Assembly (NCBI RefSeq): GCF_014279975.1
Contig: NZ_CP047936.1
Location: 2,542,001 to 2,606,000 of the forward strand
Origin: Synechococcus sp. BIOS-U3-1
GTDB taxonomy: Bacteria; Cyanobacteriota; Cyanobacteriia; PCC-6307; Cyanobiaceae
Direction: 5' to 3'
Length of the DNA stretch: 64,000 bases
The first letter of the stretch is position 1; each line of letters opens with the position of its first letter. Shown here one piece after another: positions 29,849 through 35,713 of the stretch. The notes under the pieces were generated by a model, which ran no database searches, was not told where the DNA came from, and worked only from the letters and a program-made list of their open reading frames with translations. The position numbers and the translations under genes were made by a program.

Positions 29849-30760
29849 TTGGTTACTACCACTCCGGCAGCTACCACCTCAAACCGCGAATTGCGCATGC
29901 GTGCGGCGGTGATGGCGCCCCGTGAACGGCTACCGCGTAAACAGCGCAAATTCAAAGGTGGCACCACATCCTTCATGGTGGCCATGCACGTGCTTGCCAC
30001 CATTGCTCTGCTGCCGAGGTTCTGGAGCATTCAGGGAGTTGTGGCCCTCGCCGTTCTCTACTGGGCCACGGTGCTCGGGGTGACGCTAGGCCTGCATCGG
30101 CTGGTGGCACACCGAAGTTTTGAGGTGCCCCGCTGGCTCGAACGGGTGCTGGTGATCATGGGCACCCTGGCCGCCCAAAGCGGTCCCATCGACTGGGTGG
30201 CCTTGCACCGACACCACCACAAATTCTCCGATCAATCCAATGATCATCACGATGCAGGCCGGGGCCTTTGGTGGAGCCACAGCGAATGGATGCTGCACGA
30301 AATCCCCGCTCTCGAGCACAAGGAGCGATTTGGCGGCGACCTGCTGAAAGATCCCTTCTATGTCTGGCTAGATCGCTGGTTCCTTGTGCTGCAGATTCCG
30401 CTCGGACTGGCGCTTTATTACTACGGCAATGCAGCCCAGATTCATGGAGGCGGTGTTGGCCTGGTGCTGTGGGCCATTCCTCTGCGTTTAGTGGTCGTCT
30501 ATCACGTCACCTGGCTGGTGAATTCGGCAACACACGCCTTTGGTTATCGCAATTTCGACTGCCCTGATCTCTCACGCAATTGCTGGTGGGTGGCTGTTCT
30601 GTCGTTCGGAGAGGGTTGGCATAACAACCATCACGCCCATCCGGGCAGCGCCCGACATGGTCTGCGCTGGTTTGAGTTCGACATCACTTGGATGCACATT
30701 CGGATGCTGCAGAAGCTTGGATTAACCCGGCGCGTGCGTCAGGCGCGCTATCCCGGCTGA
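29849..30760 (+). CDS. desC: Acyl-lipid/acyl-CoA delta-9 desaturase (copy 1)
   Basis: A 303-residue membrane desaturase with the three His boxes HRLVAHR (about residue 82), HRHHH (about 120) and HNNHH (about 257), and WVALHRHHHKFSDQSNDHHD typical of DesC. It introduces the first double bond into membrane-lipid acyl chains, using ferredoxin in cyanobacteria. The TTG at 29849 is the furthest upstream start with a weak purine-rich site; ATGs at 29897 and 29912 are possible and would still keep the whole catalytic region. It ends 13 bp inside the convergent regulator gene. A paralogue lies at 31529. Confidence 0.92.
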   Translation: MVTTTPAATTSNRELRMRAAVMAPRERLPRKQRKFKGGTTSFMVAMHVLATIALLPRFWSIQGVVALAVLYWATVLGVTLGLHRLVAHRSFEVPRWLERVLVIMGTLAAQSGPIDWVALHRHHHKFSDQSNDHHDAGRGLWWSHSEWMLHEIPALEHKERFGGDLLKDPFYVWLDRWFLVLQIPLGLALYYYGNAAQIHGGGVGLVLWAIPLRLVVVYHVTWLVNSATHAFGYRNFDCPDLSRNCWWVAVLSFGEGWHNNHHAHPGSARHGLRWFEFDITWMHIRMLQKLGLTRRVRQARYPG

Positions 30761-31473
30761 GCAGCCATTCGCAACTCGGCCAGAAACGCCTCAGCGCTCT
30801 GGCCCTTGCTGCCTTCAAGAGCCATGTGTGTGGCATGAAGATCGAGGAACTCACCGTCGAGCTCCTCGGCGCTGTATTCCCGCAAACCAGCCATCACTTC
30901 GGCAAAACGATCACGGCGCTGGTTTTTGGTGACCGGATAGGCCTCCATCACCTGATCACGACACTGGCGCCAGGCCAGACCACGGCAAAGACTGTCGGCG
31001 ATCGCTGCACTCAAGGCAGCAGCTTCAGTTTGATCAATCCGCCAATCGAAGCCTGGCGGCAACGGTCCAAGGCCGACAAAGATTTCAAGCAGCTCTCCAG
31101 CACCGAGGGGCTCCCCATGGGCTGCGAGCAGGGGAACAGCACTGTCGCTCAGCACCCGCAGCAGGTCGGGGTGAACTTCCGCCAACTGATCGCGGATCGG
31201 ATCCAGGCCCTGATGCAGCACCGCATTCGCCTGGCCGAGAGCGAGAAAAACCTCCGGCCCCGGAGACGAAAGCTTGCCGTTACGGAGATTGGAGATCTGG
31301 GAGTTGTGCACGCGGCCGAGGTCCAACGCATCGGCCAGAGCAGGCAACACCTTGTGCGACCAGCCGTTGCGCTCATGCCACACATGAATGAGATGGGCCA
31401 TTGCCTGGCGCCCTTCCTCAAGACGCTGTCGGTAACCCTTGGTCACATGATCAGAACCGCTTGCCTTGTCCAT
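30748..31473 (-). CDS. Putative helix-turn-helix protein between two desaturases
   Basis: A 241-residue protein. The N-terminal third contains GWSHKVLPALADALDLG, then RVHNSQISNLRNGKLSSPGPEVFLALGQAN, which reads like an XRE/lambda-repressor-type HTH: the SQISNLRNGK segment fits a recognition helix and turn. The rest is helical and unrecognised. It is divergent from the second desaturase, and an 18-bp dyad lies 5 bp upstream of its start. That location suggests an autoregulating transcription factor for the desaturase genes. The HTH call is by eye and not certain. Confidence 0.65.
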   Translation of the reverse strand: MDKASGSDHVTKGYRQRLEEGRQAMAHLIHVWHERNGWSHKVLPALADALDLGRVHNSQISNLRNGKLSSPGPEVFLALGQANAVLHQGLDPIRDQLAEVHPDLLRVLSDSAVPLLAAHGEPLGAGELLEIFVGLGPLPPGFDWRIDQTEAAALSAAIADSLCRGLAWRQCRDQVMEAYPVTKNQRRDRFAEVMAGLREYSAEELDGEFLDLHATHMALEGSKGQSAEAFLAELRMAAQPG

Positions 31474-31477
31474 TGCT

Positions 31478-31495
31478 TGATACGTATCCGTATCA
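31478..31495. promoter_or_regulatory. Candidate operator between regulator and second desaturase
   Basis: Inverted repeat TGATACG-TATC-CGTATCA (31478-31495), with the overlapping perfect palindrome GATACGTATC (31479-31488). It lies in the 55-bp divergent intergenic region, immediately upstream of the regulator's ATG (31473) and 33 bp before the desaturase ATG (31529). The symmetry and position are those of a repressor operator serving both genes. Confidence 0.6.
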
Positions 31496-31528
31496 CGTGT
31501 AGTGTGCAGAGATAACCGGGATCAAGTC

Positions 31529-32461
31529 ATGGCACCAAGCGCGATTAGAACGCCTTCGCCACCCAGTCGGAAATCAGTTTCGCATCGTGGTCCAAGGCTG
31601 GCAATCAAGACCTACCAGCGCCCCAGCAGCAAGGCGCCGATGTCTCCAAAAACCGAAAAAAGCTGGGTAACGATCGGATTCATGATCGTGATTCATGCCC
31701 TGGCGCTGCTGGCGCTCGCTCCTGGCTTCTGGAGTTGGGAGGCCGTCACCAGCCTGCTGGTGCTGTATTGGGTTACCGCCTGCCTGGGTGTGACCCTCGG
31801 TTACCACCGACTGCTCTCACACCGCTCCTTCAGAGTGCCGCTCTGGCTGGAGCGCTTCTTTGCCACCTGCGGCGCCCTGAGTTGCCAGCATGGACCCATC
31901 GACTGGGTGGGGCTGCATCGGCATCACCACAAGCATTCCGATACGGATGCGGATCATCACAACAGCCACCGAGGCTTCTGGTGGAGCCACATGGGCTGGA
32001 TGTTCAATGCAATTCCGGCGATGAAGGACGTTCCCCGCATGGCAGGCGATCTCACCAAGGACCCCTACTACCGCTGGCTGAACAACTGGTTCCTGGTTCT
32101 GCAGCTGCCCTTAGCCGGCCTGCTGTTCTGGATCGGCAATGCAACAGGTGCCGGCGGCTGGGCCTTGGTGCTTTGGGGCATTCCCCTCCGTCTTGTCCTC
32201 GTCTATCACGTCACCTGGCTGGTGAATTCCGCCACCCACACCTGGGGCACCGTGGCCTTTGAAAGTGGCGACGCGTCCCGCAACAACAAGTGGGTTGCAG
32301 CACTGACCTTCGGCGAGGGCTGGCATAACAATCACCATGCCTTCCCCCATTCAGCGCGTCACGGCCTCCAAGCGGGTCAGATCGACCTCACCTGGGAGCA
32401 CATCCGTCTGATGCGCGCCCTGGGCCTGGCCACCAAAATTCGCCTGCCCGTGAAGTCGTAA
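31529..32461 (+). CDS. desC: Acyl-lipid delta-9 desaturase (copy 2)
   Basis: A 310-residue paralogue of the desaturase at 29849, with His boxes HRLLSHR, HRHHH (WVGLHRHHHKHSDTDADHHNSHRG) and HNNHH (GWHNNHHAFPHSARHG). It is therefore another fatty-acid desaturase acting in the membrane. I chose the ATG at 31529 rather than a GTG at 31502, which would consume most of the intergenic region. The two copies differ mainly in the N-terminus and the middle loop, so they may differ in chain position or temperature range. It is divergent from the putative HTH gene. Confidence 0.92.
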   Translation: MAPSAIRTPSPPSRKSVSHRGPRLAIKTYQRPSSKAPMSPKTEKSWVTIGFMIVIHALALLALAPGFWSWEAVTSLLVLYWVTACLGVTLGYHRLLSHRSFRVPLWLERFFATCGALSCQHGPIDWVGLHRHHHKHSDTDADHHNSHRGFWWSHMGWMFNAIPAMKDVPRMAGDLTKDPYYRWLNNWFLVLQLPLAGLLFWIGNATGAGGWALVLWGIPLRLVLVYHVTWLVNSATHTWGTVAFESGDASRNNKWVAALTFGEGWHNNHHAFPHSARHGLQAGQIDLTWEHIRLMRALGLATKIRLPVKS

Positions 32462-34707: not shown

Positions 34708-34720
34708 GGCCACAACCTTG

Positions 34721-35713
34721 ATGAAGCGGTCTGAAAAAAGCTTGGTGAAGCGCCTGGATGCCCGGTTTCAGACTTGCGCGGAACTTCAGGAACTGTTTCG
34801 GCCACTCTCACCCGATCTGGTCGCCGTTCAGCTCAGCCCTGGTCCTCTGCATGGGCGCGTGCGCATTTTTGTGCTGGGAAGCTACCGCTTCAACGTGCTC
34901 GAAACCAGCCAAAGCCTCTTTCTCAGCGGAACTCGGCGGACCAAGCCATGCACGCTGGCGATTCCCTTGACGGACGCGATGGCGGATCAGCCTTATCGCG
35001 CCCAGGGCATTGCCATGCCTTGGGCCGGTTTGATGGGCTACAACCGGTCGCTGAGCGATTTCGATCTCAGAGTGCCTGCCCGGGCAGCACTGGCAACCGT
35101 GGTGATCGGAAAGGAAGCCTTGCTGGAACGCCACACACAGCAAGGAGGTGGGCCACTCATGCTGAAGCGCTGGGAAAGCACCAACCAGCTGGAAGTCCAG
35201 ACAGACCTGCGTCTTCGGCTTCAGAAGCAACTCAACAACCTGGTGGAACGAAACCAGGACACCTGGAAACCGGAAGAGCCTGATCAACTGATCGAGACTT
35301 TGATTCGCTGCTTTGAAGCGCCAAAGAGTCAAACCATGCCCATAGCCAAACGGGAGACTCGCCACGAAGCAGCGATCGAATTGCTGCACTGGTGCGCAAA
35401 GAACACAAGCAAATCGCTGACCATGAATGAGCTCTCGGCCGAGCTGCATCAATCGCGGACATCGCTGTTCAAGGGATCCAGAGAGCACTTTGATTGCACG
35501 CCCTTACAACTGCATCGATCCATGCGCATGGACAAGGTTCGGCAACTGCTGCTGGGTCAAGGCCTTCGCCAGACAATCAAGCTGCAAGGGGTCGGAGCCA
35601 TCGCATCTGCCATCGGATTCACCAGTCGTAGCCACTTCGCACGGCAATACCAGCAGCACTACGGGGAACGACCGCAAGACACGCTCAACCGGAACAGCAA
35701 CACGCCTAACTGA
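34721..35713 (+). CDS. AraC-family transcriptional regulator
   Basis: A 330-residue regulator. The C-terminal 110 residues contain the two AraC-type HTH units: LTMNELSAELHQSRTSLFKGSREHFDCTPLQLHRSMRMDKVRQLL, then IASAIGFTSRSHFARQYQQHYGERPQDTL. The N-terminal half is an unrecognised ligand or interaction domain. The ATG at 34721 follows a GAGG; a TTG directly before it is the other option. It lies 171 bp upstream of the first giant protein gene in the same direction and may control it (inference from position). Confidence 0.88.
   Translation: MKRSEKSLVKRLDARFQTCAELQELFRPLSPDLVAVQLSPGPLHGRVRIFVLGSYRFNVLETSQSLFLSGTRRTKPCTLAIPLTDAMADQPYRAQGIAMPWAGLMGYNRSLSDFDLRVPARAALATVVIGKEALLERHTQQGGGPLMLKRWESTNQLEVQTDLRLRLQKQLNNLVERNQDTWKPEEPDQLIETLIRCFEAPKSQTMPIAKRETRHEAAIELLHWCAKNTSKSLTMNELSAELHQSRTSLFKGSREHFDCTPLQLHRSMRMDKVRQLLLGQGLRQTIKLQGVGAIASAIGFTSRSHFARQYQQHYGERPQDTLNRNSNTPN

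Follow-up and report, generated by a model that had tools for sequence, protein, structure and literature searches.

We analyzed a 64,000-nt stretch (hereafter the window) of the 2.71-Mb single-contig genome of Synechococcus sp. BIOS-U3-1, in which a 16-bp palindrome lies between a fatty acid desaturase gene (d2) and a divergently oriented gene (the regulator), which has a second desaturase gene (d1) on its other side. The palindrome is a conserved, essentially single-copy element, and sequence comparison points to a real regulator–operator arrangement dedicated to d2, one that is not described in the literature we found. Our reading, to which we give a probability of about 0.62, is that the regulator is a picocyanobacteria-specific protein with an XRE/lambda-repressor fold that acts as a dimer on the palindrome and is a dedicated, self-controlling repressor of d2 (probably desC4), released under stress. 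Within this reading, binding to the palindrome, repression rather than activation, and self-control are what we infer. The features concerned, with their coordinates in the window, are the following.

29849..30760, + strand: d1, a fatty acid desaturase of the delta-9 type and a probable DesC3, judging from its distribution (Pfam FA_desaturase, histidine boxes)
30748..31473, − strand: regulator, 241 aa if it starts at ATG 31473 and 232 aa if at GTG 31446, with an XRE-like fold predicted in both halves (open reading frame [ORF], structure model)
31477..31503, + strand: core promoter proposed for d2, enclosing the palindrome and read by eye (none in a consensus scan), made up of TTGATA (31477-31482) and the weak -10 hexamer TGTAGT (31498-31503)
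31478..31495: 18-bp dyad TGATACG-N4-CGTATCA, with perfect 7-bp arms, as delimited in an earlier sequence-only reading
31479..31494, no strand: 16-bp palindrome resembling an operator, GATACGGATCCGTATC by consensus of the relatives (comparison of loci)
31529..32461, + strand: d2, a fatty acid desaturase of the delta-9 type and a probable DesC4, judging from its distribution (Pfam FA_desaturase, histidine boxes)

Intergenic regions of relatives carry GATACGGATCCGTATC or related forms, and the copy in the window (31479-31494) departs from this 16-mer at one position. We compared 130 loci, comprising the window, 29 loci from genomes of the same family, the best 80 named relatives (Synechococcus and Prochlorococcus records), and 20 freshwater-type stretches, all of them selected by their match to the regulator and with some genomes counted twice. 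Removal of loci more than 85% alike left a nonredundant set of 56, with 42 "marine" and 14 freshwater-type loci. In the 42 marine loci, the dyad columns hold 1.43 bits versus 0.67, 0.62, and 0.73 in three flanks, while complementary pairs reach 0.768 at the dyad center versus a mean of 0.266 (SD 0.086) over centers and 0.432 at the next clear center. The best palindrome of the sequence sits at the dyad place in 29/42 of these loci. The 16-mer is found within four mismatches in 39 of the 56 nonredundant loci, versus 0.4% of shuffles. When we searched 25 genomes of the genus for GATACGGATCCGTATC with no more than one mismatch, 14 had one site each, and a reversed-pattern control gave zero. Thirteen of these 14 sites are at the regulator locus (11 by coordinates, those of G556 and G561 by tblastn), and the site in G034 is elsewhere. 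The divergent intergenic region thus contains a conserved 16-bp palindrome that is a candidate operator.

The window by itself does not lift the dyad above chance: the 64 kb contain 10 perfect 7/4/7 dyads and 106 when spacers of 0 to 12 are allowed, and shuffles of single sequences reach seven of eight pairs in ~3 to 8% of cases, one locus alone often being not significant. What takes the dyad beyond chance is that the same element recurs at the same place across relatives. Scanned with the relatives' 16-mer at up to three mismatches, the window shows two sites versus 0.11 expected (0/100 shuffles had two), which are the dyad (one mismatch) and a look-alike inside the d2 coding sequence (31940-31955, two mismatches). 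We considered the look-alike as a second operator and rejected it, as it is explained by codons for DTDAD. It is common among Synechococcus relatives and is also kept by the regulator-less genome G089 (two mismatches); G242 has four mismatches there, and three Prochlorococcus loci have four to seven. A genome-wide regulon was also set aside: at up to two mismatches, the 18-bp pattern has five further occurrences in the genome (one being in the d2 coding sequence) versus one for the reversed control.

We then determined how the regulator is distributed and how constant its neighborhood is. It was detected in 254 of 300 genomes of the family at E ≤ 0.001, a few of the matches being partial or weak. 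In a sample of the phylum, 29/292 genomes have a match and all 29 are in the same family, seven further members of which have none; the other 256 genomes appear to belong to other families, judging from list order. The d2 gene is divergent from and adjacent to the regulator in 130/130 loci. A d2-type desaturase, defined by a best E ≤ 1e-115, a threshold that we set after seeing a gap in the data, is present in 250/254 regulator-bearing versus 4/46 regulator-less genomes (hand count; Fisher P = 6.5e-42). This co-occurrence is inflated by linkage and shared ancestry and, with incomplete assemblies also counting, is weaker evidence than the P value suggests. The four regulator-bearing genomes lacking the d2 type (G097, G176, G254, and G275) are 82 to 89% complete. 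Presence of d2 without the regulator is seen in G089, G242, and G297, which belong to one genus (g5), and in G025. Upstream of d2 in these four genomes an intact palindrome is absent, the best 16-mer match having 5, 5, 5, and 6 mismatches of 16; in G297 and G025, AATCCTTATC survives as a remnant that resembles one half. In the g5 clade formed by G089, G242, and G297 (L118, L207, and L208), which lacks the regulator, d1 and d2 are adjacent in tandem.

The sequence-only reading had described two delta-9 desaturase paralogs around a putative HTH protein, a layout that we confirmed: d1 and d2 match Pfam FA_desaturase (E 3.5e-18 and 3.2e-20), are 54% identical, and flank an opposite-strand 241-aa ORF. 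It had also proposed a local membrane-fluidity switch for the pair that does without the two-component Hik33 route known in Synechocystis; such independence, like a response to temperature, is conjectural for the regulator. A conserved operator-like palindrome in an essentially one-site arrangement bears out the local part; control of both desaturases does not hold up. The regulator is convergent with d1, which it overlaps by 13 bp, and d1 is downstream of it in this convergent orientation in 63/110 marine and 15/20 freshwater loci. In 50 loci that have the regulator and d2 (45/110 marine and 5/20 freshwater), d1 is not beside the regulator despite room for it; two loci have too little sequence. 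The earlier reading had left room for a copy of the dyad before d1 or elsewhere. There is none before d1, since the window scan at up to three mismatches finds only the dyad and the site within d2, and in the BIOS-U3-1 genome the dyad is the sole match to the 16-mer when one mismatch is allowed. Because no site precedes d1 and many loci lack d1, we do not tie d1 to the dyad.

The dyad is 33 bp before the d2 ATG, as had been stated, and its distance to the regulator ATG at 31473 is 4 bp rather than the stated 5, or 31 bp if GTG 31446 (residue 10) is the start, in which case the dyad is nearly midway between both gene starts. Sequence comparison suggests that GTG 31446 may be the true start. A start codon is present at residue 10 in 69/80 named relatives and absent there in 11/80; no in-frame start exists 5′ of residue 10 in 47/80, which can start only at this residue, while 32/80 have some start further upstream and 1/80 has neither. 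On the d2 side, a core promoter read by eye would enclose the palindrome, with a putative -10 that is TATAGT in many relatives. Just 5′ of the d2 ATG, GGATCA (near 31518-31523) is well conserved in marine loci and may be a ribosome-binding site or one more half-site.

The regulator has no family in Pfam, NCBIfam, or PHROGs; subthreshold matches to HTH_3 and HTH_31 are seen in 13/39 (best E 0.015) and 9/39 (best E 0.032) relatives, respectively. An AlphaFold2 model from a 39-row alignment, with a predicted local distance difference test (pLDDT) score of 91.2 and a predicted template modeling score of 0.83, has twelve helices, among which a five-helix XRE-type helix–turn–helix (HTH) domain is predicted. 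In VIA-align comparisons, residues 13 to 140 align best with the XRE chain 2ofy (Z 7.3, root-mean-square deviation [rmsd] 2.9, 80 residues aligned), followed by other XRE-type chains such as C.BclI (Z 6.6), HipB (5.0), and lambda repressor (4.1), while residues 147 to 241 align with C.Esp1396I (Z 6.7). The C-terminal half modeled alone (pLDDT 93.1) again gives C.Esp1396I, with Z 7.1 and rmsd 2.6 over 74 aligned residues. XRE-type chains head the ranking (Z 7.3 to 4.1), and unrelated rows are at or below 3.4. The HTH fold expected by the sequence-only reading is therefore supported by structure prediction, in that the model bears a likeness to XRE/lambda-type repressors, with two XRE-like folds. 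A profile search of solved structures returned chance-level matches only. Neither TetR_N (Pfam or NCBIfam) nor Response_reg (Pfam) matches at E ≤ 1, no receiver, kinase, or MerR-type domain is matched in Pfam or NCBIfam, and the VIA-align lists show no TetR or MerR chain, an absence that does not exclude either family. In titles, abstract openings, and passages of the literature, we found no study of the regulator, nor did its NATL2A and MIT9313 locus names lead to any paper.

Both desaturases have the delta-9 histidine boxes HRX3HRSF, WXGXHRXHH, and GEGWHNNHH, with A for G in box 2 of d1, as these boxes are listed in passages of PMC2593844. They are predicted to be DesC-type delta-9 acyl-lipid desaturases, in activity as in double-bond position. 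According to passages of PMC7393227 and PMC9124967, the warm clades II/III lack DesC4, and DesC3 belongs to the core. Since most g5 genomes carry the d1 type alone, without the regulator, in agreement with this pattern, d2 is likely DesC4 and d1 is likely DesC3. In the published excerpts, desC4 of WH7803 is strongly changed at low temperature and under other stresses (PMC7393227), desC4 of WH5701 is raised at high salinity, and desA and desC fall in cold-induced clusters of Prochlorococcus MIT9301, for which a single d9 gene is listed (PMC2593844). The regulator goes unmentioned in these accounts, as far as the excerpts extend. The expression data fit a membrane-stress-responsive switch and are not a test of it. 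Passages of PMC12834511, PMC10294614, and PMC7779031 were also consulted.

In the mechanism that we propose, a dimer of the regulator would bind the 16-bp palindrome between its own gene and d2. This palindrome falls within the putative d2 core promoter and adjoins the regulator start, and the bound dimer would block the d2 promoter and limit expression of the regulator itself. A signal arising from membrane stress, for which acyl chains, membrane state, temperature, and salt are candidates, would release the regulator, and DesC4 would rise.

Besides the limits of the co-occurrence given above, several results weigh against this proposal. No site within four mismatches is present in 17/56 nonredundant loci, 12 of which are freshwater loci whose regions ended at the residue-10 equivalent, truncating the site in several, and GATACGGATCCGTATC at up to one mismatch is missing from 11/25 genomes of the genus. 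The site of freshwater loci has a changed right arm, GATACGGATCCGTACTGC, and HL-type Prochlorococcus has lost the GGATCC core, with GATA-N8-TATC being kept in 16/16 loci. A scan of 31380-31600 for consensus promoters or terminators found none, including no sigma-70 consensus. As for the fold, the window regulator has no HTH match in Pfam, the curated cut-offs of HTH_3 and HTH_31 not being reached, Foldseek gave no hit with E < 0.6 on PDB and BFVD, and all VIA-align Z scores are below 8, for which reason we speak of likeness. As a separate observation on HL-type Prochlorococcus, a second GATA-N8-TATC is present 29 bp nearer the regulator in 8/16 loci (e.g., L096 and L098); among the other 94 loci, at least one exact GATA-N8-TATC is present in 44 and two in none.

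We weighed four other explanations. The regulator might bind the palindrome and yet activate d2, for instance by altering the -35/-10 geometry as MerR-type activators do. The palindrome is indeed located between TTGATA and the weak d2 -10, desC4 is inducible in the published excerpts, and d2 is kept without the regulator in just 4/46 regulator-less genomes, as expected if d2 needs it. However, the regulator has no MerR-type match in Pfam or NCBIfam. XRE-type regulators located in a promoter spacer usually repress, which also argues against activation, and we consider an activator unlikely, albeit a serious contender. The palindrome might instead belong to another factor, such as a response regulator acting in the Hik33 pathway or some other global regulator, with the neighboring gene being merely linked. 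Hik33-type kinases are kept in marine picocyanobacteria, and the binding of the palindrome by the regulator is predicted. Against this, one site per genome at up to one mismatch, beside the regulator in 13/14 cases, is unlike the site of a global regulator, and the four regulator-less genomes sampled lack an intact palindrome, which makes a foreign factor improbable.

That the regulator mainly represses itself, d2 being a passive neighbor, would agree with a palindrome that touches the regulator start region in Synechococcus and freshwater genomes. It is hard to reconcile with a d2 gene that is the constant partner in all 130 loci and tracks the regulator, or with the overlap between the palindrome and the presumed d2 promoter, and we regard it as very improbable. 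A chance inverted repeat has in its favor the 10 like dyads in the window and the shuffle frequencies reported above; recurrence at the same place across relatives makes it negligible.

A possible link to phages also emerged. A tblastn search of 50,697 phage records matched only cyanophage P-SS2 (three records, E 3e-4), whose ORF103 (ACT65665.1; L192:5950-6690) is related to the regulator over ~200 residues, with an hhalign probability of 97 and 24% identity. ORF103 is beside bet and an integrase gene, divergent from small ORFs and replication genes, and its record carries the note "similar to NATL2A_1270." The P-SS2 protein matches 29/292 cyanobacterial genomes, and in 29/29 its match coincides in position with the desaturase regulator. 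With up to three mismatches allowed, the operator is absent from the 12.4 kb around ORF103, and IMG/VR yielded no relatives with either the regulator alignment or the P-SS2 protein. Passages of PMC2593844 list the d9 genes PMN2A_1271 in NATL2A and PMT2172 and PMT2174 in MIT9313, the P-SS2 host; since PMN2A_1270 and PMT2173 neighbor these genes, we infer by position that they are the regulator. The P-SS2 authors describe no identifiable repressor in the phage (PMC2784084, in the passages seen), and ORF103 is a candidate, as it occupies the place expected of a phage repressor.

Distant paralogs also exist. All 13 genomes chosen for having more than one regulator match have a second, distant match. 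Among these divergent paralogs (L175-L191), L175 is beside a plasmid-like replication gene, by eye, and several share one type of downstream partner ORF, ~250 aa long. Paralog L177 matches HTH_31 with E 4.7e-5 and 24.1 bits, still below the cut-off of 27, and hhalign links it to the regulator family at 98%. A tentative scenario, doubtful when taken as a whole, is that a phage-repressor-type protein with two XRE-like folds became a near-core, one-site desaturase switch in Prochlorococcus, Synechococcus, and Cyanobium, that the P-SS2 relative is the phage's unrecognized repressor, and that regulator and operator disappeared wherever the desaturase was lost or switching was no longer needed.

Known systems offer partial parallels. 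In Pseudomonas aeruginosa, desT adjoins desCB and encodes a TetR-family, acyl-CoA-binding protein, whereas the regulator has no TetR match in Pfam or NCBIfam and shows likeness to XRE folds. DesT represses desCB by binding its promoter and also binds fabAB, according to passages of PMC10634369. The regulator would likewise be a dedicated repressor of a delta-9 desaturase, a role that is predicted, but unlike DesT with its second target, it has a palindrome found at one site per genome. P-SS2 ORF103 is homologous over the ~200 residues and also divergently oriented, from replication genes in its case, and differs by its low identity and the lack of a nearby operator copy. C.BclI, C.Esp1396I, ClgR, HipB, and lambda CI act on a small palindromic operator at a core promoter. 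Their helical arrangement is predicted in the N-terminal part of the regulator and again in its C-terminal half; in contrast to these proteins, the regulator has two such folds and roughly double their length, and reaches no family model at cut-off. Hik33 and DesK-DesR, which adjust desaturase transcription to membrane state, rely on a membrane kinase and a response regulator, while the regulator has no receiver or kinase domain match.

Picocyanobacteria have few regulators, and a dedicated regulator–operator pair for DesC4 would be a simple control point in them. Their thermal niches are tied to desaturase content, according to passages of PMC7393227 and PMC9124967. The four genomes with DesC4 and no switch (G089, G242, G297, and G025) are a natural experiment. 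ORF103 is a candidate for the repressor left unidentified by the P-SS2 authors (passages of PMC2784084), and if the scenario outlined above is true, the most abundant phototrophs control their membranes through what was once a phage-type switch.

Beyond d2, the window continues with the gene for ribosomal protein L9 (Pfam) and then that for a DnaB-like helicase (by eye). Downstream of dnaB, at 34718-35713, is a gene for an AraC-family regulator (HTH_18, E 2.7e-13).

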